From the NCBI GenBank assembly GCA_900142905.1, contig FSRV01000003.1, positions 620,001-684,000 on the forward strand: a DNA stretch of 64,000 bases, in the 5' to 3' direction. Origin of the DNA: Burkholderia sp. GAS332 (GTDB lineage: Bacteria > Pseudomonadota > Gammaproteobacteria > Burkholderiales > Burkholderiaceae). Positions within the stretch are counted from its first letter, which is position 1. Each line of letters begins with the position of its first letter. Below are positions 12,054 to 60,446 of this stretch, in pieces. Both the position numbers and the translations under genes were made by a program. The notes below the pieces were generated by a model. That model had not been told where the DNA came from and searched no databases. It worked only from the letters and a program-made list of their open reading frames with translations.

Positions 12054-12571
12054 TGACTGACCTTGGGTGCTGAGAGGTTGCTGGATTATCAGCGATTCAC
12101 GCACTCAGGTCGACTGACCACTCCTGGCCGATGGACAGATCGCTTCTTGATCGACAGCATCTCACTATGACCGCGACAACTTGATGCATCGGCCGTCCCT
12201 ATAAGCGCCAGTAGCTCATAGTTCGCCGCAGGGAAATCATACCTTTGACCCAAATGTCGCAGGCTCGCTATAAATGTGGATGGGATAAGCCTGTGGACAG
12301 TCCGTCGAATCACAGTCCCGACGTGCCTTTCATCGGCGGCGCCTCCAAATTGAGCAGCATGCCCGTGCGTGCAACTCGTTACGCGCCCTTGGCCGGAATG
12401 GTGCGGAAAACCGTATCGCTTTCGACGAAATCTAAACTCTGCTGAATGAGCCCGCGTCGACTGGAAAGCTCCACGATTTGACCCGTCTATTGAACCTCGC
12501 CCTGCCACTCGGAAACTCATAATCGGTGTACACGCGCATAACCTTGCGCCTATCCACCACTGAGGGGCTTC
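12054..12571. other. no recognisable gene; upstream region of the exported protein
   Basis: Long open frames on the minus strand here run through the next real gene and look like shadows. A 66-codon frame on the plus strand (12245-12445) has no ribosome site and no recognisable content. The right end carries TTGACC at about 12477 and a CATAAT box near 12518, which may belong to a promoter for the gene at 12572. Confidence 0.35.
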
Positions 12572-29022: not shown

Positions 29023-29448
29023 CTACGTACCTTTCCGGTTGAGGTCATCCAGCGGACGATCCAATTCCTCGATACTCATGCCTTTTCGGGAACAATGGTA
29101 CGCAATGCGCTGCCAACGCTGCAGCCACTGCTGCTCCAATGTTTCATAACGTCTAATCTGCATACGCAGACTCTCGACGGTCTGATCAAGATACGTGAGC
29201 TCGTCACCACGGGAGCGCGACCGGGAACGTCGATCCGGAGCCGCGAGTGCACGCTTCGCTTGCTGGTAGGCGCGCAAGATGTCAGGGTGGCGACTGAGTG
29301 CCTGCCGTGTGAACCCGGAGAACGCTTCGATCCGCTCCCATGTGAGCTTTATGCCGAGTTCACCGTCCCGCCAGCGATCAAGTTCAGCGACGATCCCCGC
29401 AGCCTTGCGCTCGCTGATCTTCGAGTTAGCCCGGATCGCTTTCGGCAT
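29023..29448 (-). CDS. TnpC-like accessory protein
   Basis: 141 residues from the ATG at 29448 (GAAGGGGGCTGCA upstream), starting MPKAIRANSKISERKAAGIV and overlapping the recombinase stop by 23 bases. The N-terminal half is a helix-turn-helix-like region (WERIEAFSGFTRQALSRHPDI), the second half a coiled coil (about 85-120). In Tn554-type elements the corresponding TnpC influences the frequency and orientation of insertion; that role is inferred here. Confidence 0.72.
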   Translation of the reverse strand: MPKAIRANSKISERKAAGIVAELDRWRDGELGIKLTWERIEAFSGFTRQALSRHPDILRAYQQAKRALAAPDRRSRSRSRGDELTYLDQTVESLRMQIRRYETLEQQWLQRWQRIAYHCSRKGMSIEELDRPLDDLNRKGT

Positions 29449-31417
29449 TGCAGCCCCCTTCGTCGATATAGCGCACAAGGTCAGCTTCATCGAAGTCCAG
29501 GGTCGCCAGTTGCGCCATCAGCTGCTCGTACCGGATACGCAGGTGCCTCATCCAGTCCGGTTCGACCAGCGCCTGTCCGTCGATCTGCATCTGGACATTC
29601 TGCAGGCTCACGTAGACGACGGCTGCCTGTCTCTTGAGTTCGTCTGATCGCGGCGCGTCGTGCCTCAGCCAGATATATTCGTCGCAATTGGCCGAGCACT
29701 GCAGATGACGCGGACATGGCGCCATCTGGAAGTCGTGGATGCACATCCCCGGCCCGACATCATGGACGGCATGGATGCGTGCTGACAGAAACGTGTGCGC
29801 GCGCTCGACTGGCAATACCGTCGCTATCTCCGTCACCGCACCGCTGATGCGACCGCTCATGATGTCCGTCACTACCTGCGTGGCTTTTTGGCCGGGCGTC
29901 ATGTGCTGATAGGCCTTCGTGTCGGCCGCGTGCTTGCGCCCGAACCATTTGGTCTGGACGAGATCCGGCGCACCACCCTCATCGAGCAAGTGATTCAGGA
30001 AGTGGCGGAACCCATGCGAGCGGACGTTTATGTGGCCACCCTTACTGTCGACGATCGCGTAGCGGTCGAAGACCGAGCTGATGACACCACGCCCCGTCAG
30101 GAAGTCGCGCACGTTCTGGTCCGTGATCGGACGCGCCGCATAGGTCAGCGTCGTCCGGGTGCCGCGATGCATCTGGTTTGTATAAGCAACGCAGAGCGCT
30201 TCGTGGAGTGCGAGGCCGCGGCCGGGCGCGCCCGGTATCGTGGGCGACATCCAGTGGTCGCCCCTGACTCCTCTCAGCAACGCGCCGCGAGCGACGCGTA
30301 TCTTCCCGCCAACAATCTTGTACGCAATGCTCCGCGCTTTCAGGAACTGCGCGACCGCATTGCTGCGCAATCCCAGTATCGCGGGCAACGAGGGACCAAC
30401 AATTTCCACCGGCAACGGTATGGCTGTGAGCAGCTCACCCGATTCATGGAAGGCCCGGGCGACCTGCCGCCCTCCCCGTGTTGCTTCGCGCAGTTCAGTC
30501 AGCGCCTCCTCGACGACCTGCTCCGTTTCCGTCAGCAATGGTTTGCTTTCCCACTCGACGCCCACATCGTCGGCCCGTCCCTTCAAGCGCGCATAGCGCA
30601 GAATCTTGCAGCCGTCCTCGGCCAGCGAGAGTGGCTTCTCGGGCAGGGTTAGCATTTCGCCGATACGCAAGCCGGTACACACCATCACGGTTGCGATCAG
30701 GATCATGATGCGATCGGCACTGACCGAATCATGCGGCGATACGCCGCGCGGAATCCGCTGGTACAGGTAACCGATCGCCCGGACGGCGTCCTCATCTGGC
30801 AGACGGCTCGCTGGCCTGGCCTCCCGAGCCGCAGCGTCGATACGGTCGGGCGTCATCGATCGCGGACGGGATTTACGCCGGCAGCGCCAGTCGAGTCGCA
30901 GGCGACACAGACCATTACGATCCAGTGCGTCCGCAAACTCTTCCATATGGCCGACGACCTTGTATGCGGATGACTCACACTCACGTTCAAACAGCACCGC
31001 AGCAGCAGCGTCCAGGTGGTCCGCCGTCAGTTCACCGATGTCGTGATCACGATCCGCAAGCGCATCGAATACGTAGCGCGTGGCCCGGACGAACACCATG
31101 TGGCTGCCCGCCGACTGGCCCCGTTGACGATGCCGCAGACACACCAGCGACTTCACGACATCACCAAACGGCCCGCACAGCGGCGCACCGTGTATGCGAG
31201 GCCTGAAGCTATGTTGTGTGAACAGCAACCGCTGTGCAGGCCGGTCTGCCTTGTACGCGCGCGTGCGGTGCCGGTAGGTCTCTGACACGTCCCAGGTCGA
31301 ACTGTCCCAGGCCACGCTCGCAAACGGAACTGCAGCCTTGGCTCTGGATACAAGCGCCGCACGGTTGACGATCCAGTTAGCCGACAGCACGCCGACCGAG
31401 CAGGTGGGCGCGGCCAT
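29426..31417 (-). CDS. tyrosine recombinase C of the element (large, Cys-rich tail)
   Basis: About 663 residues. The frame is open to 31498, but the ATG at 31417 just past the previous stop (or 31450) is more plausible. The catalytic domain spans roughly residues 240-510: Arg in CTGLRIGEML, HGFRHFLNHLL as box II, then WFGRKHAADTKAYQHMT with the Tyr. The C-terminus holds a Cys/His cluster (GMCIHDFQMAPCPRHLQC, then ANC) and a helical tail, a layout shared with the fragment at 1-528. It is the third and largest recombinase, in the place of Tn554 TnpB or RIT RitC. Confidence 0.82.
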   Translation of the reverse strand: MAAPTCSVGVLSANWIVNRAALVSRAKAAVPFASVAWDSSTWDVSETYRHRTRAYKADRPAQRLLFTQHSFRPRIHGAPLCGPFGDVVKSLVCLRHRQRGQSAGSHMVFVRATRYVFDALADRDHDIGELTADHLDAAAAVLFERECESSAYKVVGHMEEFADALDRNGLCRLRLDWRCRRKSRPRSMTPDRIDAAAREARPASRLPDEDAVRAIGYLYQRIPRGVSPHDSVSADRIMILIATVMVCTGLRIGEMLTLPEKPLSLAEDGCKILRYARLKGRADDVGVEWESKPLLTETEQVVEEALTELREATRGGRQVARAFHESGELLTAIPLPVEIVGPSLPAILGLRSNAVAQFLKARSIAYKIVGGKIRVARGALLRGVRGDHWMSPTIPGAPGRGLALHEALCVAYTNQMHRGTRTTLTYAARPITDQNVRDFLTGRGVISSVFDRYAIVDSKGGHINVRSHGFRHFLNHLLDEGGAPDLVQTKWFGRKHAADTKAYQHMTPGQKATQVVTDIMSGRISGAVTEIATVLPVERAHTFLSARIHAVHDVGPGMCIHDFQMAPCPRHLQCSANCDEYIWLRHDAPRSDELKRQAAVVYVSLQNVQMQIDGQALVEPDWMRHLRIRYEQLMAQLATLDFDEADLVRYIDEGGCNAESDPG

Positions 31418-31421
31418 CGAT

Positions 31422-33125
31422 TTACGTCTTCTTGCGAAGTCGGCGGACATAGTCTTCAACCTCCCGGACGACCTGCGCAACGGCATAGATGACATCATCG
31501 AGCTGGATCGACAGGCGCGAACCGTACTTCGTTTGACGGTCCTCGCGGCTCGCGAGCAGTTCGTTCAGAACGGCTTGATGGTCAGCTTCCGCATAAGGCT
31601 GGAATTTCGGGCAGAGGTAGCAGGAGAACGGCGGATCGAGGGCGCAGAGCCGCTCCTGTCCGCAGGCGCCAATTTCAACCGGCGGTACAGCCGACACGTC
31701 TCCAACAAACCGGATGCTTTTCTTGGGATCGGATCCGTTCACGGCATATGACGCTGACGGCACCAGCGTCCCACGGAACAGCCTCATCAGCGGCCCGATC
31801 TTCAGCGCGGCGGCACGGTCAAGGATGGTGGTCAGCCGCGTCCCCTTCAGCGAGTAATAGACCTGGACGTGTTGTGTATCCGAATGGTCGAGCATTGCAG
31901 CCAGAACCCTTCTCGATACGCCAAGTTCGACCATCGTCGTCGCGAACGTGTAACGCAACCGGCGTGAGCTAATGCGAAGGGGACGCGCGGTGCGAGGCGA
32001 TACGAGATTCATGCGCTTTGAGAACTGCTGTACCAGTCGAGTGAACGACTGGGCAGTGATGTGGTACGCGTATTCGCCCGTATCCGTCCCCTCATGCCAT
32101 TCGTCGACATCGCATCGCATGAAGAGCGGCCTAGGACGGTTGCCGCAATCGACTGTCTTGTTGACATCAATCAACTCCCTCAAGAGGCCTACCAACTCAT
32201 CGCTGACGGGCTCCTCGACGAACACCTGTCGCACGCCAACGCCCGGCTTCTTGATTCTCGGAATGGCCAGCACCCAGTGGGCAGGCACGTCGAACCCTTC
32301 GAGAGCGTTCCTCAAATCCGTCTCACGCAGCAGGCAGAAGTTGGCCGGATTGCGGCCATACGCAAGACTGAGCGCGACGGCCGTGCGCTGCATCACGTCG
32401 CCCCGCTCCATAGATCTGTCGTCGAGCAGCGCGCGACGGAGCAGCGTCACCTCCGTATCCCAGAGCGGGCCACACTCCTCGTCGTCCAGTTCAACGGCAA
32501 GGCGCGATGGCCGCGTTGGGATCCGGATTTCATCGAGTTCCAGCGCGAACTCCACATCGAAACCGAGGCAGTCCAGCATTTCTGACGACCAGATGTACCA
32601 GCTCCGCAGGACGTAAAACTCGTCCATCGCTTTCCGTACACGCAGGGCCTGAATTGCCTTCTCCACCGAGGCGCACAGGGCTGCACGCAGCCGCAACGGA
32701 TCATCGATTACCGAGAGATGCTGCCACAGCACCTGCAGTTCGCCGGTCGACATATCGTCACAGACGGGCCGCCCACTCAGCGCTGCTGTCGTTGTCTTTA
32801 TGGCACCCGCGACGGTCGCACCGGATTGCTGTGTAAGAAGCTGCACCGCCCATCGCCGCAGCGCATAGCTCACGATCACGTTGCAGTCGGCGAGGCTGGA
32901 CCAGTCGACTGCAACGTGTGCGGTGACGACATTGAATTTCCATACGAGGCCATTGAGATCCATCCGCCGTCCATCGCGGTCCACGATGTAGTCTGGCAAC
33001 GCAGGCAGTCCGTACCGCCGCAGGTGTGCGGCCATGGCCCGGTTCACGTCACTGTTCGTCACACGTCGCTCCCGACGATTGATCTGCCGAAGAGCGAAGC
33101 CTGGTAGCTCAGGCTGATCTCGCAT
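31422..33125 (-). CDS. tyrosine recombinase B of the element
   Basis: 567 residues. The catalytic region is in the second half: Arg in LAYGRNPANF, Lys in IPRIKKPG, SSRRLRYTFATTMVELG as box II with the usual first His replaced by Arg, and LDHSDTQHVQVYYSL with the conserved His and Tyr. The N-terminal 200 residues are a core-binding-like domain, and a C-terminal Cys-containing tail follows. It overlaps recombinase A by 67 bases and recombinase C starts right after it, so the three are made from one transcript. Confidence 0.82.
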   Translation of the reverse strand: MRDQPELPGFALRQINRRERRVTNSDVNRAMAAHLRRYGLPALPDYIVDRDGRRMDLNGLVWKFNVVTAHVAVDWSSLADCNVIVSYALRRWAVQLLTQQSGATVAGAIKTTTAALSGRPVCDDMSTGELQVLWQHLSVIDDPLRLRAALCASVEKAIQALRVRKAMDEFYVLRSWYIWSSEMLDCLGFDVEFALELDEIRIPTRPSRLAVELDDEECGPLWDTEVTLLRRALLDDRSMERGDVMQRTAVALSLAYGRNPANFCLLRETDLRNALEGFDVPAHWVLAIPRIKKPGVGVRQVFVEEPVSDELVGLLRELIDVNKTVDCGNRPRPLFMRCDVDEWHEGTDTGEYAYHITAQSFTRLVQQFSKRMNLVSPRTARPLRISSRRLRYTFATTMVELGVSRRVLAAMLDHSDTQHVQVYYSLKGTRLTTILDRAAALKIGPLMRLFRGTLVPSASYAVNGSDPKKSIRFVGDVSAVPPVEIGACGQERLCALDPPFSCYLCPKFQPYAEADHQAVLNELLASREDRQTKYGSRLSIQLDDVIYAVAQVVREVEDYVRRLRKKT

Positions 33126-34258
33126 GATTCCCGCCGGATCGCAGCGTCGATATACGGCCTCACCGAGTCGGCCGACCGCCAGCCGAAGAAGTACATCATG
33201 TCCTTGTCGATGCGCTCTTCATCCAGGCCGTTGCGCAGCCCTGCCGCCCGGAAGTTGGTGGCGCAGGTGCTGCGCAGGCTGTGCGGGTGCAGGTCGTAGA
33301 ATTCGGGGTGAACGGCGGCAACCTGACCAAGGAGACCGTTCATACGCACGAGGCTCATCGGTTGGCCACCCCGACTCAGAAACAGGAACGGACTCCTACT
33401 GGCTCCGGGAATCGTTCGGCGCGTTCTACAGATGTACTCGTTGAGGTATCTGGCCAGCGAGGCATCGCACGGCAGATGTCTCGACTCTGTCTTGACCTGC
33501 GGCTCGTTGATCCGTGGATCAGCAGGATCGTCTGGCGAGCGCTCGACGCGGATTTCGGGAATGGTGCGGCCCAGGTGGCAGTCCGAAACCCGGAGCTTGA
33601 GCAGTTCACCCCGCCGCACGCCGAGTGTTGCCATCATCAACACGATCAGGAAGTTGCGCTGGCGATACGGCTTTTTCCAAGGATTGTCGCAAGCGTCGGG
33701 ATGGCAGACCTGCAACAAGCGCTGCAGCTGTTCGGCGGACAGCGGCGCCGCATGCACGGCGGACGGCAGGCGAGCTCGCGCCGCGTTAGCGAAGCTGCGC
33801 TTGATGAGCGTCAGGCGGGCCCGTACGTCACGGATTTCCGGGCTGCCCACGGGCATCGCCGACATCGCGCATTCGAGGTGCCACACGACACATTGCGAAA
33901 CGACGTTCAGCCGGAATGTCACGGTGCCAGGTGAGACAACCAGCTTGCGGACTTTCCCCGCCACCTGGAAGTTGCGCCGTAGCCATGGGTAGAGCTGGCT
34001 GACGATTTCGTCCTGCGTCAGCCCTTCGCCGGATACGAGTCGCGCCTCAAGGGGAAACGCTTCCGTCGCCGCCCATGTCCACAGATAGCCCAGAACGTAT
34101 AGCGTCTTGACGAGGCTGCTGACGGACAGCCGGGGGCGCAGGCGTTTGATCAGATACGCGTTGACCCAAGGTATCGGTTGCCTCTCGGCGTCCAGCAGGA
34201 CCGGCAGACGTTCGCCGCTCGGATGCAGGACCGTGACCACGTGAAATCGGGTATGCAT
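33059..34258 (-). CDS. tyrosine recombinase A of the element
   Basis: 399 residues, ribosome site AGGGAGAAGCCG. Core-binding domain about 75-180, catalytic domain 185-385: Arg in LGVRRGELLKL, HPHSLRSTCATNF as box II, FFGWRSADSVRPYIDAA with the Tyr nucleophile. This is the first gene of the operon, 32 bases inside the right inverted repeat. The orthodox catalytic set suggests that A is active; the trio is thought to act as one complex in related elements. Confidence 0.85.
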   Translation of the reverse strand: MHTRFHVVTVLHPSGERLPVLLDAERQPIPWVNAYLIKRLRPRLSVSSLVKTLYVLGYLWTWAATEAFPLEARLVSGEGLTQDEIVSQLYPWLRRNFQVAGKVRKLVVSPGTVTFRLNVVSQCVVWHLECAMSAMPVGSPEIRDVRARLTLIKRSFANAARARLPSAVHAAPLSAEQLQRLLQVCHPDACDNPWKKPYRQRNFLIVLMMATLGVRRGELLKLRVSDCHLGRTIPEIRVERSPDDPADPRINEPQVKTESRHLPCDASLARYLNEYICRTRRTIPGASRSPFLFLSRGGQPMSLVRMNGLLGQVAAVHPEFYDLHPHSLRSTCATNFRAAGLRNGLDEERIDKDMMYFFGWRSADSVRPYIDAAIRRESCEISLSYQASLFGRSIVGSDV

Positions 34259-36837: not shown

Positions 36838-37248
36838 TTTTCTCTCCAGAAAAATTAATCGCACAGGGAATGTCCAGACAACGTCTGGAAGGTTTCGATG
36901 CTCGACCGAGCAGGGAAAACACAGGCGCGAAGCGCTTTCGTGCGGACCCATAGCAGGCACGCACGAAAAGGCTCAACGAGGCGAACAGGGGGAATAAGAC
37001 AGAGGCCGGTGCCCCGTCAGGGGACGGCATCGCGCGATGGCAGAAGTCGATGCGTCAGCAGACGCGGGAATACCACAAGGCTACAGGCGGGACACCACGG
37101 CGGCCGACCAAATGCTCACGAAACTCGTGCAGCTTTGGCAGGCAGGGGGCACGCCGCCGTCCCGAAGGATTGCTTAACCGGAAAGCTATATGGTTTTCCG
37201 CATCATTGCGCCTAAGGGCGCGCAACGCGTTGAACGAATCGCGCGGAC
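36838..37248. other. divergent spacer between minus-strand ssb region and plus-strand NERD gene
   Basis: No gene recognised. The right end leads into a TTGACTT promoter; an imperfect inverted repeat (CGGAAA / TTTCCG) is near 37180-37202. Leftward promoter elements for the 36837 gene were not clear. Confidence 0.4.
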
Positions 37249-37283
37249 TTGACTTCGAAATCGCCCGGGCACACTGGACTCAA
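37249..37283 (+). promoter_or_regulatory. TTGACTT-type plasmid promoter
   Basis: TTGACTTCG starts at 37249; a possible -10 (CACTGG/ACTGGACT) follows 17-20 bases on. A ribosome site GGAG is at 37295-37298. Confidence 0.45.
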
Positions 37284-38016
37284 CATCACAGAGTGGAGTC
37301 CACCATGGTACGGAATTGCTTTCCTTCTTGCGATCGGGTTCGCCATCTATCGCATCGGCCGCCGGCGTCGGGCTCCACCGGCTACGGCCCTGCCCCGTCC
37401 CGCCACACGTGCCGAGGTTGCTGGGGACGCGGGAGAAGCGGCCGTCGACGCCGAACTCCGGCGCGCGCTCGCCTGGTTGTGTGGCGAGAACTTCTACCTG
37501 CATCGCGGCCCAGTCCTGTTGCACCACGCCCCCGGCGCGAGCTATCCGACGGCTGAGGTCGATCACCTCGCCATCACGCCTTTCGGCCTGTTCGTGTTCG
37601 AAACGAAGAACTGGACCGGACACATCGAGCCGGGTCCTGATGAGAGGTCCTTGGTGCGTGTCGCGGGCAACGGCGAGCGTGAGCTGCGCAAGTCACCGCT
37701 GAAACAGAACCACTCGAAGGTGGTGTTTCTGCGAGGCGTCATGCCGGGCATGTGGCCGGCCCACAGCTTCGGCGTCTTCGCTTCTGGCAATTGCACCCTG
37801 TCGCCGGCACTTCCCCCATCGCTCATACGTATTGCGGACCTCGCTCACCAGTTGCATTTATGCAAAACGCATTACGAGTCCCGCGGCCAGCGGGAGGTGA
37901 ACGTGAAGGCAGCCTGGCAGGCAGTGCTGTCAGTAGCCGAGGTGGACCGGGATTCCATCGAACGACACCGGTTACGCGTTCGAACCCGCCTCGTTATTCG
38001 TATGATTATTTCCTAA
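37249..38016 (+). CDS. NERD-domain membrane-anchored protein with unclear start
   Basis: The frame encodes a hydrophobic N-terminal segment (WYGIAFLLAIGFAIYRI), then a NERD domain (about residues 55-180) with AGDAGEAAVDAEL, the nuclease-like core AEVDHLAITPFGLFVFETKNW (Asp and the ETK Lys) and the typical SPLKQN. NERD proteins are predicted DNA-processing nucleases. Start problem: the frame has no ATG near the promoter. The only good start signal (GGAG, ATG at 37305) is in another frame. The TTG at 37249 is inside the promoter itself, and an ATT at 37315 is the next in-frame candidate. Either a rare start is used or a small indel separates the ATG from the domain. Confidence 0.75.
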   Translation: MTSKSPGHTGLNITEWSPPWYGIAFLLAIGFAIYRIGRRRRAPPATALPRPATRAEVAGDAGEAAVDAELRRALAWLCGENFYLHRGPVLLHHAPGASYPTAEVDHLAITPFGLFVFETKNWTGHIEPGPDERSLVRVAGNGERELRKSPLKQNHSKVVFLRGVMPGMWPAHSFGVFASGNCTLSPALPPSLIRIADLAHQLHLCKTHYESRGQREVNVKAAWQAVLSVAEVDRDSIERHRLRVRTRLVIRMIIS

Positions 38017-38267
38017 AGTTACCGATTCAGATGCCGATGCAACAGCATCCTTATCAGCAGAAATTTCTGCATTAGGCACGAAAGCTATGCGTTTTTACGC
38101 GCCTTTCGCGCCTTTGAGAAGAAAACCTGGGCGTATTCTTACGATCAAAGGCGGGACGAGGCTACGCCGTTGATGTTACTGAATGTTTATTTTGAAACGA
38201 TTCGTAACTCACGAGATCCGGCCAAAGGAAGTGGTTGCGCCCTTCATCGACCAAATCTGGACAGACC

Positions 38268-39557
38268 ATGAGCAATAAGAGAGACATCACCTCGAAGAGC
38301 AACACACCGAGCAACACGCCGTCGGACGACGTTTTCGACCCGACCCGTCTCGAACCCGCATCCGGCTCGCTTCCTGCCACCGAGCCACCGACGCACGTCA
38401 CACCGACCTTCGGGCACTTCATTCCGACTGAGAGTGAGATGAGCGCCGCGGCCCGCGCGCTGTTTACTGGGGAACTGCCCGACGCGGCTGTCCGGACAAT
38501 CATCCAGGAAAGCGAAGAGGTTGCGCACTCGACACGCAAGATCCTTCAGGAACACATGCGGATCGGCGCGTGCTACGTCCACATCATGACGACGGTCAGC
38601 AACTCGCTGATCAGTAGCCAGGGCGACCGGAAGTCCGTTCGCGACAAGGCCGCTCACCTCGCCTACTCGTACATCCAGCAGGTGCATGGACACGCGAAGT
38701 CCTCCGTGAGCACCTACACGCGCATCTATGACAAATTCGCGAGCAACAGCGCCGCCGTGCAGGCACTGACGCGCGCTGACATGGCACTGCTGATCCGGCA
38801 CGACACGCCGGACGAACTGGTCGATATCGTCATTGACATGAGGACTGGCAACCCGGAAATATCGCCCAAACAGATGAAGGAGTTCGTCGAATCCTACAAG
38901 AAGGCTCAGCAGGAAGTCGCCGCTGCCACGAACCGCATTGAGGTGATGAACGCGGAACTGGCCAACGCCGGACAGCAACTTGATCAGGAACAATCGGAGA
39001 ACAGGCGACTGCGCGAGGAGAGTGAGCAGTTGAAGAAAGCCATCGAGCGGGATCGGCGGTCGGCCGATGGGATGAAGAACGAACTGGCGAGTCACGGCGA
39101 ATCCGTGAGTGCTCTTCAGCGCGAACTCTCCGATCGCGAGCGCGAACTCAAGACGCTTCATCAGCAACTGGCGGACGCGCAATCGAAAACGCGCACCGAG
39201 CAGGTCGAAGTGCCGAAGATACCCGGGAGCTTCGCGACGATGGAGGATGCCATCGAGGATCAGATCCGCCGCAAACGCGAGGCAACCAACGCGCTGGACA
39301 CAGCAATGGCAGAACTTGCAGCTATCGAATCCGCGCTGGCCGAGAAAAACGCCGAGATTGAGGCCAGCCTGCACGCGGAGAGGAAGGTCAACGAACTGAT
39401 CGACAGTTTTGGGACGTTCACGCAGGAGTTCCATACAGCACAACTGCTCGTCACCGCCGAGGGACATCCTTCACGCTACCTGCCTCTCTTCCAGGGCCTC
39501 GCCGATCTCGTCGGGAAGTTCCACACGGAGCTTGTCGCTGCCGCACGGGCTGCCTGA
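38268..39557 (+). CDS. coiled-coil plasmid protein (possible DNA-binding scaffold)
   Basis: 429 residues from the ATG at 38268. A disordered Thr/Pro-rich start (1-45), a helical domain (about 50-200) and a long coiled coil (about 205-390) rich in Glu, Leu, Arg and Gln. The layout recalls KfrA-type plasmid proteins (DNA-binding head, coiled-coil tail) but the head does not show a clear KfrA motif. It precedes the FlhDC-like gene by 50 bases and is likely co-transcribed. Structural or partition role is inferred from shape only. Confidence 0.6.
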   Translation: MSNKRDITSKSNTPSNTPSDDVFDPTRLEPASGSLPATEPPTHVTPTFGHFIPTESEMSAAARALFTGELPDAAVRTIIQESEEVAHSTRKILQEHMRIGACYVHIMTTVSNSLISSQGDRKSVRDKAAHLAYSYIQQVHGHAKSSVSTYTRIYDKFASNSAAVQALTRADMALLIRHDTPDELVDIVIDMRTGNPEISPKQMKEFVESYKKAQQEVAAATNRIEVMNAELANAGQQLDQEQSENRRLREESEQLKKAIERDRRSADGMKNELASHGESVSALQRELSDRERELKTLHQQLADAQSKTRTEQVEVPKIPGSFATMEDAIEDQIRRKREATNALDTAMAELAAIESALAEKNAEIEASLHAERKVNELIDSFGTFTQEFHTAQLLVTAEGHPSRYLPLFQGLADLVGKFHTELVAAARAA

Positions 39558-39606: not shown

Positions 39607-40797
39607 ATGAACACAAAAGAAAAATACTTGGCCGTCGAGCGGTTACATGTGCCGGAATGGCAAACGGATCAGATCCAGAGCGCCAACTTCGACTTCGTCG
39701 AATACATGCGCTGGCTGCTGATGAGTGATGGCCGCTTCAACGAGATCTTCAAGGTCGAGCGCAAGGAGATCGAGCACTTGCGCCTGAACCAGTCGTCGCT
39801 GCGCAGCTTGCTGAACACCCCATTCCTGATGGTGGCGCCGACGCTAACCACCGTCGAAGACTGGCGTTGCTTTGTGGAAAATACCGCGACGACCGTGGCC
39901 GTCGACCGGCTCCGCGACGCGTTGCCGCCGGTGCAGGGTATCGAACTGTTCGCAATCCGCAATCAGAACCAGCGCTTCATGACGCTCGCCAGCAACCTGA
40001 TCCACACCAGCGTGCTGGCCGCGCCGCTGCTTGGAATCACGCCCGACGTCGCCGATTATCTCGGGTCGCTGCGCGGTAGTCAGATCCGTCTTGCGCTGGG
40101 CAGGATCGCAGGCCTGCCACTGTTCCGCTGGCGCTTCACGAGCACCACTTTCTGGTACGAGTTCACCGCAGACAACCTGACCGACGAGGCGATCGCGCAT
40201 CAGATCATGCTGACCTCGCCGCCCGACCTCGCGAAACCCAAAAAGGTGCCCGGGTTTGCGGAGTTGCGTCTGGACCGTTGGCAGAAGGAGACATTCGCCT
40301 CGGCGATGATGGCTCACGGTCTGCGCGCGTCGACGGCGTCGGATGTCTTTACGCTGAATCAGAGCAAGATGCGCGCGCGCTTCTTCGAGATTCACGGGAG
40401 AAGCTCGACATGCGGCAACCAGACCCGCTCGCTCACGTGGTTCGTCGAGAGCGCGGCGCAGCGCCTGCACGCCACGATCTACATCTGGCTGTATCGCAAG
40501 GCAATCGCGCGCGGTGCCAATGCGCCCGAGGCACTGATCGCAACGCATGATATCTACGCGCGCCTGTTCAGCAGCATGCCCCTGATATCCGCCGATCGTG
40601 CATACAACCTTACGAGCTCCTTCGCAGCCGATACCCGCCTGACGACAGCGCCGTGCCGATCATGCTCGACTCCATACATCGTTTCGAACAGCGATGTGCG
40701 CGTTGAAATGCACCACAGCTTCACATGCCCAGCGTGTGCGCAGGACCTCGGCCCGCGTCGCAAGCGCATGCGAAAAAGCAAGGACGCTACAGAATGA
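39607..40797 (+). CDS. FlhD-FlhD-FlhC-like fusion regulator
   Basis: 396 residues. The C-terminal part (about 215-380) fits FlhC: a helix LNQSKMRARFFEIHG matching FlhC's LSRGRLIKLYKELRG, then STCGNQTRSLTWF, a helical core (IYIWLYRKAIARGANAPEAL) and a zinc site C350-x2-C353 and C374-x2-C377. The region before it (about 125-180) fits the FlhD core (LLGITPDVADYLGSLRGSQI vs FlhD's LGINEEMATTLAALTLPQM), and residues 30-80 look like a second, more diverged FlhD unit (LLMSDGRFNEIF). FlhD4C2-type complexes activate transcription; SetCD and AcaCD are such activators of transfer genes in ICEs. A single-chain version is therefore a candidate master activator. Overlaps the next gene by four bases. Confidence 0.7.
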   Translation: MNTKEKYLAVERLHVPEWQTDQIQSANFDFVEYMRWLLMSDGRFNEIFKVERKEIEHLRLNQSSLRSLLNTPFLMVAPTLTTVEDWRCFVENTATTVAVDRLRDALPPVQGIELFAIRNQNQRFMTLASNLIHTSVLAAPLLGITPDVADYLGSLRGSQIRLALGRIAGLPLFRWRFTSTTFWYEFTADNLTDEAIAHQIMLTSPPDLAKPKKVPGFAELRLDRWQKETFASAMMAHGLRASTASDVFTLNQSKMRARFFEIHGRSSTCGNQTRSLTWFVESAAQRLHATIYIWLYRKAIARGANAPEALIATHDIYARLFSSMPLISADRAYNLTSSFAADTRLTTAPCRSCSTPYIVSNSDVRVEMHHSFTCPACAQDLGPRRKRMRKSKDATE

Positions 40798-40979
40798 GCA
40801 CCGGCACCTCGCAAACAGAACGTGACCTGCCGGCCGGCCTGGTGATATTCACGTCCGATGGGCGCGCACAGTTTGGTTGGCAGAATCCTGAAACCGGCCA
40901 GTTCTTCGCGGAGGCTGACGGGTCGTGCATCGTCAACGCAGTCGGCGCCGTTGCGTGGGCGAGCGACCGGATGCATTGA
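40794..40979 (+). CDS. small hypothetical protein
   Basis: 61 residues from an ATG that overlaps the FlhDC-like stop (ATGA). Beta-rich: LVIFTSDGRAQFGWQNPETG. No family recognised. The overlap suggests translation coupled to the regulator and perhaps a role in modulating it. Confidence 0.6.
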   Translation: MSTGTSQTERDLPAGLVIFTSDGRAQFGWQNPETGQFFAEADGSCIVNAVGAVAWASDRMH

Positions 40980-40989
40980 GGACGTACGC

Positions 40990-41355
40990 ATGGAAGATTT
41001 CGATTACCTGGTTCGCGACAGCAATGCGGCGTGGCTCGATGGGCGAGGCGACGGGCGGTTCGAGAGGTATGAGAGCTTCTACCAGGGGGCACGCGCCCAG
41101 CAGGCAAGCGATTTCGACCTCGAGAAAACCAACGAGGAGTATGCGGAGACAGCCGGTAAATCGCCCTCCAGACTATTCTCGATGGCCAACTCCCCGCTAT
41201 TTGGCCAGCTCGCAATTGCCATGCTTGCGGTTTTCATTGCATCGCGGGCGGTGCCGGTACTCGCGCAGAAAGTGCCGTACATAACCGGTGGACTGCTGGT
41301 CGCGGCATTCGTCGCATTGCGGGTTTTTCATCGACGTCGGCGAAAGCGCAAATAA
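40990..41355 (+). CDS. membrane protein with acidic N-terminal domain
   Basis: 121 residues from the ATG at 40990 (GAGGAC upstream). An acidic soluble part (about 1-60), then two hydrophobic segments (about 65-80, LFGQLAIAMLAVFIASRAVP, and 92-110) and a strongly basic end (FHRRRRKRK). Last gene of the small operon, before the terminator at 41389. No family recognised. Confidence 0.6.
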   Translation: MEDFDYLVRDSNAAWLDGRGDGRFERYESFYQGARAQQASDFDLEKTNEEYAETAGKSPSRLFSMANSPLFGQLAIAMLAVFIASRAVPVLAQKVPYITGGLLVAAFVALRVFHRRRRKRK

Positions 41356-41416: not shown

Positions 41417-43313
41417 GTGCGCCCGGCAGGGCGCACTCACTCAGAGGTGAAAGTCCTCTACACGCCCGGCAAGGGGAAGTGTTAGCCGAACGGCAAGGGT
41501 GTCGCGGGCGACCGCGAATCTGAAGGAAGCCGAAGGCAAAGCGCTGGCCTGACGAACAGGAAGCGGATATGAGGCGGCGTAGCGGGGTGAGGTGTCCCAT
41601 ATCACTGAAGCCCAGTACTTGCACGGAACGCTACGACGTATATCCGACAGGCATAAGCGTGAAGGTGGGTGCGTCATACCCGGGGAGATCTGCATGCGTG
41701 CCTTGTGCTACCGGCATCGAGAGGTGTCGGGATGCGCCTGCAGAAGTCAGCAGAGGGCATATTAGGTTGGGGGCAAGGCGGTGAGCCAATGAGAACCTCG
41801 ACTGAAGGCCTGAACATTGAACAACGCGATTAGGACATCCGACCTCGATGCTGAGCGACGACGCAACAAGGCAGGCAACTGCGCCCAACGGGGGAGGAGG
41901 CGAACGGAATTCGCTGAGGACCGCGCCGGGTGCCGAGCCCGGCACGGCGGCGGATGAGCAAACGAAAGCGGAAGGGCCGCGGCAGATGGATGCCGTGGTT
42001 GAACGAGCCAACTTATGGCAAGCGTATGAGCGGGTCATGCAGAACAAGGGGGCACCAGGAGTCGACGGACTCACGGTCGCTGAGTTCAAGGCATGGCTGC
42101 AACAGCGCTGGCCGAGCGTCAAGGCAGCACTGCTGGCCGGCGACTATGTCCCGGCGGCGATCCGCAAGGTGGAAATACCGAAGCCAAATGGTGGGGTGCG
42201 GACACTGGGGATACCGACGGTACTGGATCGCCTGATTCAGCAGGCGCTGCTGCAAGTTCTGCAACCGGAATTCGAACCTGAATTCTCCGGGCACAGCTAC
42301 GGGTTCCGCCCGGGCCGCAACGCCTGGCAAGCGGTACAACGAGCGCAAAGCTATCTGAAGGAAGGCCGCCGATGGGTGGTTGACCTCGACCTGGAGAAAT
42401 TCTTTGACCGGGTGAACCACGACATTCTGATGTCGCGGGTAGCTCGGCGGGTCAAGGATGAGCGGGTTCTGAAGCTGATTCGGCGCTACCTGGAAGCGGG
42501 CATGATGTCAGAGGGTGTCGTCAGCGTGAGGACGGAAGGTACGCCGCAGGGCGGACCGCTGTCACCATTGCTGTCGAATATCCTGCTGACAGACCTGGAT
42601 CGCGAACTGGAGCGCCGGGGACACCGGTTCTGCCGCTACGCCGACGACTGCAACATCTACGTTAAAAGCGAAACGGCAGGGCACCGCGCGATGGACGCGA
42701 TCACCGGTTACCTGGAAAAGAAGCTCAAGCTTCGGGTAAATCGAGAGAAAAGCGCCGTTGCCCGACCTTGGACCCGGAAGTTTCTGGGTTACAGCTTTAC
42801 GTGGCACAAACAGGCTCGTCTGAAGGTCGCGGAAAGCAGTCTGAAGCGACTCAAAGACCGGGTGCGTGAAATCGTGGCTGGGAACGCCTCGCGCAAGCTC
42901 GGCGACACGATTGCAGCGCTGAATCCGGTGCTACGCGGCTGGACCTCGTACTTCCGGCTAACGGAGGTCAAAGGGGTGTTGCAGGATTTGGACGGGTGGA
43001 TACGACGCAAACTGCGCTGCCTGCTATGGCGGCAATGGAAGCGCCCGGCTACCCGGAACAGGAAGCTACAGGCTCGCGGGCTGGACTCGACGCGGGCGTG
43101 GAAATCGGCCAGCAATGGCCGAGGTCCTTGGTGGAACGCCGGTGCGAGCCACATGAACGCGGCCTACCCCAAGAGCTTCTTTGATGCCTCAGGGTTGGTT
43201 TCGCTGCTGGACACCCAGCGGCGCTTCCAGTGTGTTTGATGAACCGCCGTATGCGGAACCGCATGTGCGGTGGTGTGAGAGGGCGACGGGGGCAACCCCG
43301 TCCCCTACTCGAT
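41417..43313 (+). mobile_element. group II intron with intact maturase
   Basis: The 5' end reads GTGCGCCCGGCAGGGCGC, a standard group II intron start. The 3' end shows a domain V-like hairpin (CCGCCGTATGCGG, then CCGCATGTGCGGTGG, about 43243-43275), a domain VI-like stem (GACGGGGGCAACCCCGTC) and CCTACTCGAT, close to the usual intron end. The reading frame inside is complete. It sits a few bases after a terminator hairpin, the insertion preference known for class C introns; the exact class and ends were not determined. Confidence 0.82.
41848..43239 (+). CDS. ltrA: group II intron reverse transcriptase/maturase
   Basis: 463 residues. RT blocks are complete: GVRTLGIPTVLDR (about 116-128), DLDLEKFFDRVNHD (179-192), QGGPLSPLLSN (234-244), YADD at 264-267, and VNREKSAV. 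A maturase domain follows (about 310-400, with LRGWTSYFRLTEV). A GIIM-type C-terminal region is present but no HNH endonuclease motif is evident. The start may be the ATG at 41848 or one near codon 47. The frame is intact, so the intron may be mobile. Confidence 0.92.
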   Translation: MLSDDATRQATAPNGGGGERNSLRTAPGAEPGTAADEQTKAEGPRQMDAVVERANLWQAYERVMQNKGAPGVDGLTVAEFKAWLQQRWPSVKAALLAGDYVPAAIRKVEIPKPNGGVRTLGIPTVLDRLIQQALLQVLQPEFEPEFSGHSYGFRPGRNAWQAVQRAQSYLKEGRRWVVDLDLEKFFDRVNHDILMSRVARRVKDERVLKLIRRYLEAGMMSEGVVSVRTEGTPQGGPLSPLLSNILLTDLDRELERRGHRFCRYADDCNIYVKSETAGHRAMDAITGYLEKKLKLRVNREKSAVARPWTRKFLGYSFTWHKQARLKVAESSLKRLKDRVREIVAGNASRKLGDTIAALNPVLRGWTSYFRLTEVKGVLQDLDGWIRRKLRCLLWRQWKRPATRNRKLQARGLDSTRAWKSASNGRGPWWNAGASHMNAAYPKSFFDASGLVSLLDTQRRFQCV

Positions 43314-58368: not shown

Positions 58369-59259
58369 TCAGAAACCGAAGATGCCGCGGCGACCGCGGG
58401 TCACCTTCACTTCGTCGTTGCCGGCGCGCAAGACGATCTCGCTGGCCATCTGCTGGACAACCATGTACGGCCCCCGACGGATGAAGTTCGGACTCACGTT
58501 ATCGCCGTGATCCTTCACGACCGGCACGGCGAAAGGCGAGTCCGGCGGCAGACGCAGCCACACGAAACGGCCGTCGTCGAAAACGGTCTCCGGCTTGAAC
58601 GGGGCCGATCCGGTCACGGTGTAGTCGAAATTGAGTTTGTCCGGCGACACGCCAATCGGACCCGAGTCGGTCGTGGACCGCCCTGCCCCGTCGTCACCGG
58701 CAAGCGAACCCGATCCGCCGTCACGCTCCTGGCGCGCGCGCACTTTCGCCATCAACGACTGCGGATAACGGAACCGGACCGTCTGATAGAAGAGTCCGCC
58801 GAGCGGCGACGAAACGAGCGTCATGTCGTACTCGCGCTGGTTCGTGGTGAGGTGCATCGTGTTCACGAGGCCCGGTTTCGCCGGCTTGACGAAGACGTGG
58901 TTGGCGCCGTCCGTGTCCACGACCCACTGGATCGAATCGCCAAGCGCCGGGTCCGCGACAAGCGACTCGCCTGGCGCAAGCTCGATCGTCGTCGTCTTCA
59001 GCGGCGCAGTCATCACCTTGAAGATCTGGTCGCGGCTGTATGGGAACACGGCCATGCGTGCGTCCCCCGGCATCGTCAGCGGATCGGTTCCGCTGTTGTA
59101 CGGATTGACCGGGCTCATCGGATCGCCGAGCAGATTGGCGATTTCCTGCGACGCGGCCGAGGGTAGCGTGCCGGGTTTAGCCGCGAACGTCGGCAGGCAG
59201 ATCAGCGCGCATACGATCGCGCCGACCAGCGAAGTCAGTCGATGGTGTGAGCGCGTCAT
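58369..59259 (-). CDS. virB9: VirB9/TrbG-like T4SS protein
   Basis: 296 residues with signal peptide (about 27 residues, ending TFAA). The conserved VirB9 pattern is clear: DQIFKVMTAPLKTTTIELAPG and GESLVADPALGDSIQWV in the N-domain, then RYPQSLMAKV and the C-domain with FNYTVTGSAPFKPETVFDDGRF-type sequence (at about 215-235). It forms the outer-membrane part of the T4SS core with VirB10. Overlaps the VirB8-like stop by four bases. Confidence 0.92.
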   Translation of the reverse strand: MTRSHHRLTSLVGAIVCALICLPTFAAKPGTLPSAASQEIANLLGDPMSPVNPYNSGTDPLTMPGDARMAVFPYSRDQIFKVMTAPLKTTTIELAPGESLVADPALGDSIQWVVDTDGANHVFVKPAKPGLVNTMHLTTNQREYDMTLVSSPLGGLFYQTVRFRYPQSLMAKVRARQERDGGSGSLAGDDGAGRSTTDSGPIGVSPDKLNFDYTVTGSAPFKPETVFDDGRFVWLRLPPDSPFAVPVVKDHGDNVSPNFIRRGPYMVVQQMASEIVLRAGNDEVKVTRGRRGIFGF

Positions 59260-59957
59260 GATGTCTTCTGCAGATTGGTGAACGGATAGAAGATGCCGTA
59301 CGGGTTAGCCGTCAAGGCGTCCTCGGAGGCAGGCGGTACGATCTGGTAGCGCCAGGTTAGCGCGTATTTCTGGACGACCGGCTTGGCTGCCGGACTGTCC
59401 GTCGTGCTCGCGGTGAACTCGACAATCGCCGTTGAGTCTTCAAGCAACGAGACATTCGTAACCTTCACTTCGCGCACCAGCTTCGGGTTGGCGGTAATCG
59501 CCTGGAACGGCGCGTCGTCCTTGAGCCACGTACCGAACTGGTTGCGTGCGTTGCCCACCATCTGTGCCTTGACGGCATTGATGTTCCGGGCCATACGGGA
59601 GTTTTCGAGTGCATCCGTGAGGACAGGCTCGATCGTGAACCAGCGCTCGACTGAGTCCTTCATCGAAGCTCGAAGCGCCTGGTCTTCCGGCTTGTACGCT
59701 GCGAGTTGCGTCAGGACGGGATGCCCGGCCACGTCCGACGACACACCGTAGGACTTAACGACGGACGGGGGCGGCTGGCGAGTCCAGACGGCACCACCCG
59801 CAATGAACGCGAGAACGAAGCACAGCATCTTCCAGTGGTTCGCCTCAACGCGCAGCCGGGTGCCTTGATCGAAAATGATCCCCTCCGGGTCCTCTTCCGA
59901 GTACCCGCCGGGAGCGGTTGCGAGCGCGATCTGTTTTTTGCTTCTGAAGAAACGCAT
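59256..59957 (-). CDS. virB8: VirB8/TrbF-like T4SS protein
   Basis: 233 residues. Short cytoplasmic part, one membrane segment (about 43-58, WKMLCFVLAFIAGG) and a periplasmic NTF2-like domain (about 65-225) with EFTASTTDSPAAKP and LTWRYQIVPPASEDALTANP, the last ending in the conserved NPyG motif. It nucleates assembly of the channel at the inner membrane. First gene of the 15-gene operon; its start is 10 bases from a 7-bp inverted repeat that may control it. Confidence 0.88.
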   Translation of the reverse strand: MRFFRSKKQIALATAPGGYSEEDPEGIIFDQGTRLRVEANHWKMLCFVLAFIAGGAVWTRQPPPSVVKSYGVSSDVAGHPVLTQLAAYKPEDQALRASMKDSVERWFTIEPVLTDALENSRMARNINAVKAQMVGNARNQFGTWLKDDAPFQAITANPKLVREVKVTNVSLLEDSTAIVEFTASTTDSPAAKPVVQKYALTWRYQIVPPASEDALTANPYGIFYPFTNLQKTS

Positions 59958-59967
59958 GACGGACTAT

Positions 59968-59989
59968 CCAATTGGGCCGACTCAATTGG
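59968..59989 (-). promoter_or_regulatory. perfect inverted repeat just before the virB8 start
   Basis: CCAATTG at 59968-59974 and CAATTGG at 59983-59989, 8 bases apart, 10 bases upstream of the first start codon of the operon. It overlaps the place of the ribosome site, so it could be an operator or an mRNA hairpin controlling translation. Confidence 0.45.
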
Positions 59990-60446
59990 AGCAGCGCCGC
60001 AGGCAAGAGCGTCATGCAAAAGAGATGCGATTTTCGAGCGCTTTCCCGAGATGCCTTACATTGGATTCCCCTCCGGCCGGTGCGCGTAATCGGTTGGCCG
60101 CCCTTAGCCGAAATGACCCACAAGATGAGCCCGCTTTTCAGCTAATGTGCCGCTCGGCTATTTGATAAAACTTATCATCGCCTGCCTAATGGCTTGCACA
60201 CTTTGCACAGCACTGCCCGACGCCGAAGGCATCGATTTTTCATTGAATAATCAATAGGTTTTCGTCGAATCGGTTTGAGGGCAAATCGCCGAATGCGTGT
60301 AACCGATTACGCGCTGCATTTCTCTTTCTGCAACAATGCGCGGGGCCATGCACTTCGTTTGCGCTTATGCAGCAACAAAGAAGGGAAGTTGCTGCGCCTG
60401 CGTTCAGACACCTAGTTGGTTCAGTCGAATAACTCGCGAGAGGTGC
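59990..60446. other. divergent control region between T4SS/pilus operon and KorB-like gene
   Basis: No gene recognised. It has AT-rich segments including a palindrome at 60163-60177 (TGATAA-AAC-TTATCA) and two copies of TTGCACA-like sequence near 60194-60212. It must hold the leftward promoter for the pilus operon, but no clear hexamers were found. Confidence 0.45.
60163..60177. promoter_or_regulatory. palindrome in the control region
   Basis: TGATAA at 60163-60168 and TTATCA at 60172-60177 with a 3-base centre. A 15-bp palindrome of this form is a typical small operator, in the divergent region between the HTH protein gene and the virB operon. Confidence 0.35.

Follow-up and report, generated by a model that had tools for sequence, protein, structure and literature searches.

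A fused FlhD-FlhD-FlhC chain is the probable master activator of conjugation in a family of Burkholderiaceae plasmids

FlhDC, the flagellar master activator, assembles as FlhD4C2 (2avu, 8j56), in which FlhC contacts DNA and FlhD holds the ring (relevant part of PMC3510510). FlhDC-like activators of conjugation are carried by mobile elements, namely SetCD (SXT/R391), AcaCD (IncA/C), SgaCD, AqaCD, and AsaCD; in the portions of PMC4542580 that treat them, D and C are two separate genes, FlhDC, SetCD, and AcaCD bind promoters without a −35 element and stand in for it, and the search reported there names Enterobacteriaceae and Vibrionaceae. An FlhC-like subunit likewise occurs in BisDC of ICEclc, a two-gene, autoactivating master activator of transfer in which BisC carries DUF2857 and BisD resembles ParB and showed no FlhD domain (as given in part of PMC7423338), and an FlhC domain occurs in the two-gene positive regulator of conjugation Orf246/Orf247 of Rts1 (SetC/SetD; locus L115; as given in part of PMC10838148). 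Here we describe a gene in a 64,000-nucleotide stretch of Burkholderia sp. GAS332 (the window; contig FSRV01000003.1, positions 620,001 to 684,000) that appears to encode three such units in one chain, in the order FlhD-like, FlhD-like, FlhC (DDC). DDC is like FlhDC in its FlhC fold and four-cysteine site, in one FlhD unit by profile, and in an activator-like promoter layout, and unlike it in having its units in a single chain, in its place in a plasmid conjugation region, and in its association with a 28-bp dyad. Like the SetCD/AcaCD kind, it goes with a candidate site at the −35 region of promoters without a −35, near partition genes (compare the portions of PMC4542580 cited above); unlike them, it is one open reading frame (ORF) and is found in Burkholderiaceae. 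The new element is the covalent D-D-C order, the FlhDC-like conjugation activators in the literature consulted being two-gene systems; our search of the open-access literature found no paper on a natural FlhD-FlhC fusion. We consider it likely that DDC is a single-chain FlhDC-type activator that acts on conjugation operons through the dyad.

The gene and its three regions are as follows.

39607..40797, + strand: DDC gene, ORF of 396 amino acids
39646..39930, + strand: first FlhD-like unit (unit 1), residues about 14-108; predicted fold, sequence match not significant
39940..40221, + strand: second FlhD-like unit (unit 2), residues about 112-205; hhalign against FlhD, weak single-sequence matches
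40267..40746, + strand: FlhC unit, residues 221-380, zinc cysteines 350/353/374/377; sequence and fold

The FlhC unit matches FlhC (PF05280) with 37.4 bits, above the Pfam gathering cut-off of 27, and has the FlhC fold and all four zinc cysteines, in agreement with the first-pass annotation, which had placed an FlhC-like region with a zinc site at residues 215-380. PF05280 is matched at E ≤ 0.1 by 74 of 75 family members. The score against the flagellar FlhC equivalog NF009365 (NCBIfam) is 38.7 bits, below its cut-off of 216, indicating that DDC is not an orthologous flagellar FlhC.

Unit 2 scores 14.3 bits against FlhD (PF05247), below the Pfam gathering cut-off of 27; its single-sequence FlhD matches are weak (E 0.048, 0.015, and 0.031), and PF05247 is matched at E ≤ 0.1 by just 5 of the 75 members. 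Profile-profile comparison with hhalign aligns residues 113-188 with FlhD (probability 95.7, P 1e-8; 0 of 149 column shuffles as good), which bears out the FlhD core proposed earlier at 125-180. For unit 1, residues 14-108 folded alone give a predicted fold that matches FlhD chains (best Foldseek E 0.45), a result specific to the isolated unit: the fold search with the full-length model, itself confident (predicted local distance difference test, pLDDT, 87.8; predicted template modelling score, pTM, 0.88), did not list FlhD chains. In that full model the order of elements repeats, with H17-40..E76-78..H97-105 in unit 1 and H112-134..E173-175..H193-202 in unit 2. Strand 76-78 is missing when unit 1 is folded in isolation, so it may pair with unit 2. 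The strands of both units lie near the position of an FlhD cysteine that we take to be Cys65 (unit 2 by profile alignment, unit 1 by the fold range 14-79 against FlhD 1-68); at this position, in the LCRFRF stretch of FlhD, DDC has Phe173. Cys65 joins two FlhD subunits in 1G8E (relevant part of PMC3510510).

The main weight against unit 1 as FlhD-like lies in its sequence. The profile match of unit 1 to FlhD is not significant (probability 0.6, P 0.09), nor is its match to unit 2 (P 0.0097, with 7 of 149 shuffles scoring as well), and the best Foldseek E for FlhD is 0.45; DDC could be an FlhD-FlhC fusion with an unrelated helical N-terminus, its FlhDC homology limited to residues 112-380 and unit 1 being another domain. 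We rate that alternative as improbable. The predicted fold suggests that unit 1 is FlhD-like, and the second core that the first-pass annotation had drawn at residues 30-80 stands as a predicted fold and not as a sequence match. Across residues 1-210, on which that annotation had staked its fusion, we find FlhD by profile at 113-188 and a predicted FlhD fold at 14-108; the single-protein D-D-C arrangement is upheld by one ORF and by an alignment in which all three regions are filled in 75/75 rows.

The DDC gene lies on contig C3 (804,682 bp) of a 10.4-Mb genome in three contigs. Among 72,556 plasmid records, DDC occurs in 48, all from Burkholderiaceae (Cupriavidus 18, Burkholderia 15, Paraburkholderia 9, Caballeronia 4, Robbsia 2), 26 of them typed conjugative; a Cupriavidus DDC used as query again returned 48. 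It is present in 26 of 117 genomes of the genus (E ≤ 1e-20) and in 2 of 399 genomes of the order (E ≤ 1e-30). Scanning 398 genomes of the phylum with Pfam FlhC produced 54 matches, among them one DDC gene (G144, frame of 397 amino acids) and four other frames that run 289-313 amino acids; this search and another over 143 genomes both missed the window's own DDC gene and are hence an incomplete test for fusions elsewhere. The genes around DDC in the window are as follows.

38268..39557, + strand: coiled-coil protein gene, 49 bp upstream of DDC
40794..40979, + strand: ORF of 61 amino acids, its start overlapping the DDC stop (ATGA); counterpart annotated in D15
40990..41355, + strand: ORF of 121 amino acids, gene order as in relatives
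59256..59957, − strand: virB8, first gene after a dyad (Pfam VirB8, 8.7e-23)

The coiled-coil gene and DDC probably form one operon. On the 3′ side of virB8 follow virB9, virB10, and type IV pilus genes, down to about 45387 (Pfam CagX, TrbI, TcpQ, T2SSE). In the 14 plasmids read, DDC belongs to the transfer region. Each of them has a gene of about 1.2-1.3 kb immediately upstream of DDC, and in each, pilus or adhesin genes face the DDC operon from the other side; a downstream CAP-domain gene is annotated in 10/14, and virB9/virB10 lie beyond the pilus genes in all seven read that far. By tblastn, a relative of the window's coiled-coil protein is found in 43 plasmid records, including 12 of the 14 plasmids read (not NZ_CP016951 or NZ_AP023183).

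Two flhD-flhC pairs of the ordinary kind are present in the host genome, located on C1 and C2, and a plasmid-borne regulator could in principle drive host flagella or mix with host FlhD or FlhC. This alternative is very improbable: the place of DDC is fixed beside conjugation genes in the plasmids read, the FlhC domains from 21 DDC rows group in a clade that excludes host FlhC (98/90 support; long branches flagged, that of Rts1 Orf246/Orf247 being very long), and 3 of the 4 exact dyad matches in the window's genome are on plasmid C3.

The dyad, GAAAG-N18-CTTTC, was found through promoter alignments and a pattern scan. Across 16 loci taken from 12 plasmids (470,186 bases, small overlaps included, of which 18.9% are intergenic) it occurs 23 times in intergenic and 0 times in coding sequence, and none of the other spacings between 6 and 40 is seen more than 3 times (range 0-3); the spacing count is independent of the seed sites, though the pattern had been seen first. 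Three of the 23 sites lie between convergent genes and are terminator-like, leaving 20. A position weight matrix (PWM) built from 22 sites gives 50 intergenic and 0 coding matches at scores of at least 15, counts that are partly circular, the seed sites having come from the same loci; 60 shuffled matrices give almost no matches at 20 or above. On 22 further loci (404,842 bases) the matrix gives 52 matches, irrespective of coding status. The PLSDB gene tables are incomplete, so 'intergenic' may include unlisted genes. A hairpin interpretation was rejected: in 62 of 64 sites the inner positions pair at 2.08 of 7, and the other two are hairpin-like. The sites in the window are the following.

38080..38107: dyad before the coiled-coil/DDC operon; PWM 27.9; −10-like TATTCT at 38134-38139
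60018..60045: dyad before virB8, 61 bp to its start; PWM 22.7; −10-like TCCAAT at 59985-59990 (− strand)
37110..37137: weak dyad before the hypothetical/SSB operon (− strand); PWM 14.0; −10-like TAGCCT 26 bp on
37181..37208: second dyad, 71 bp upstream of the preceding one; PWM 19.8
12396..12423: dyad in the left part of the window; PWM 23.5
12464..12491: weaker dyad, 68 bp on from the preceding one; PWM 15.5

Dyads are paired about 68-72 bp apart at several promoters (37110-37208 in the window; L077, 631-728; L121, 686-785).

virB8 is preceded by a dyad at 60-62 bp in 7/7 plasmids looked at (scores 13.3-33.1), and virB11 by a dyad at 41 bp in pHG1 and pMOL28. In the window's own plasmid, a virB11-virB4-TraI-TraD operon lies 84 kb from virB8 with a dyad 39 bp before an inner ATG, which is likely where virB11 starts; were the longest ORF taken instead, its start would fall ahead of the dyad. 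A TANNNT hexamer follows the dyad by 26-27 bp in 18/18 promoter-proximal sites of the DDC and SSB operons and in 12 of 13 sites of loci outside the matrix; at virB8 the −10-like hexamer is TCCAAT or TTCAAT after TGN. No −35-like hexamer (at least 5 of 6 positions matching TTGACA, within the first 18 bp after the dyad) is found at any of the 17 virB8, virB11, and SSB-operon sites, and one is found at 3 of 11 own-operon sites (spacers 14, 15, and 21). The arrangement at virB8, virB11, and the SSB operon fits, by analogy, the −35 substitution described for FlhDC-type activators. Of the SetCD/AcaCD trait of a shared operator at transfer promoters in the place of the −35, the site and the geometry are present, with DDC as the putative binder. 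A role for DDC as activator of transfer genes with the virB8 upstream region as target, as the first-pass annotation had it, gains independent support from a dyad common to virB8, virB11, and the DDC operon, to which DDC may bind. Immediately before virB8, a palindrome, TCCAATTGA-N5-CCCAATTGGA, at 59965-59995 (− strand) overlaps the −10-like hexamer and is conserved in the aligned Burkholderia and Paraburkholderia plasmids.

Of the 26 genus genomes that have DDC, 23 contain the dyad pattern (48 sites), versus 18 of the 91 that lack DDC (22 sites; Fisher p 2e-10). A reversed control pattern gives 21 sites in the 117 genomes, 3 of them in DDC genomes, so the dyad sites of the DDC-less genomes are at about background. 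This co-occurrence ties the dyad to the plasmid and not to DDC alone. Several observations weigh against DDC as the protein that reads the dyad. The link between protein and dyad is circumstantial, both being parts of one plasmid backbone. Among the 58 virB8 matches listed at an identity of at least 45%, 10 lack DDC, and all six of these that were read keep a dyad-like sequence before virB8 (scores 9.7, 16.3, 15.0, 10.6, 11.7, and 32.5; background 99%, 9.2), five of them weak (9.7-16.3) and one strong (32.5, NZ_CP151112). In the latter (C. metallidurans p2; L148, 12555-14114) the pilin gene and the later hypothetical genes are within 1.6 kb, and the annotation lacks everything from pilV into the first hypothetical genes, including DDC and its coiled-coil neighbour, the strong dyads being kept; it cannot separate DDC from the coiled-coil gene, because both are lost together, nor do the DDC-less plasmids tell DDC apart from the remainder of the backbone. 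At the PRTRC-D gene, a good −35 lies 6 bp after the dyad in 9/9 sites, and the dyad may act otherwise there. In Robbsia and PGU19, the matrix scan found no site of 13 or above in the sequence just ahead of the coiled-coil gene. Finally, the E. coli FlhDC site is longer than the 28-bp dyad.

The dyad could instead be the operator of another backbone regulator, such as the coiled-coil partner, a repressor, or a segregation or silencing protein, with DDC acting elsewhere or only through it. Consistent with this are the gene of coiled-coil size directly upstream of DDC in 14/14 plasmids, its joint loss with DDC in NZ_CP151112, and the PRTRC-D sites; on the other side, the dyad at virB8, virB11, and the SSB operon has the position required of a class II activator, with the −35-like hexamer missing and the −10 at 26-27 bp, and FlhC is the only family above the Pfam cut-off among the operon products scanned. 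We regard another regulator as unlikely.

Domain make-up, context, dyad, and promoter geometry were computed; from these we infer dimerisation, binding of DDC to the dyad, and activation. The two FlhD-like units probably pack together as an FlhD homodimer does, and two chains would join through FlhC to give a pseudo-FlhD4C2 with the D:C ratio fixed at 2:1. Each FlhC unit would recognise one half of the dyad, GAAAGCT-N14-AGCTTTC, the end of which lies 26-27 bp before the −10-like hexamer. RNA polymerase would be recruited to the virB8-pil, virB11-traD, and SSB operons and to DDC's own operon, the last giving positive feedback. Taken in full, the proposal that the fused chain is the conjugation master activator of this plasmid family (pHG1, pMOL28, and many Burkholderia and Paraburkholderia plasmids), reading the dyad as a covalently tethered pseudo-FlhD4C2 of two chains and switching on the transfer operons and itself, seems to us probable, at somewhat lower confidence than activation through the dyad as such.

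The window has further features. The gene order of the window is that of relative plasmids, plus a group II intron reverse transcriptase (41848-43239, + strand) that separates the DDC operon from the CAP-domain gene. A NERD-domain gene (37249-38016, + strand) adjoins the operon, both here and in those plasmids read that come from Burkholderia, Paraburkholderia, Caballeronia, and Robbsia; the Cupriavidus plasmids read carry no such annotation. Between the backbone SSB and primase genes stand three tyrosine recombinase genes in tandem (29426-34258, − strand), resembling a recombinase-in-trio (rit) element; a part of PMC2864759 mentions rit elements for pHG1 and CH34.

According to passages of that 2010 genome paper (PMC2864759), this backbone is common to pMOL28 (metal resistance), pHG1 (hydrogen oxidation), and pRALTA (nitrogen fixation, symbiosis), and the presence of pil genes may point to a sui generis conjugative system. 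If our reading is true, DDC would be the first FlhDC-type activator in one chain, as far as the literature searched shows, and would give a one-gene handle on how the FlhD4C2 ring assembles and reads DNA. For a large family of plasmids, it would also identify the probable switch of the conjugation genes, together with their probable operator and regulon.
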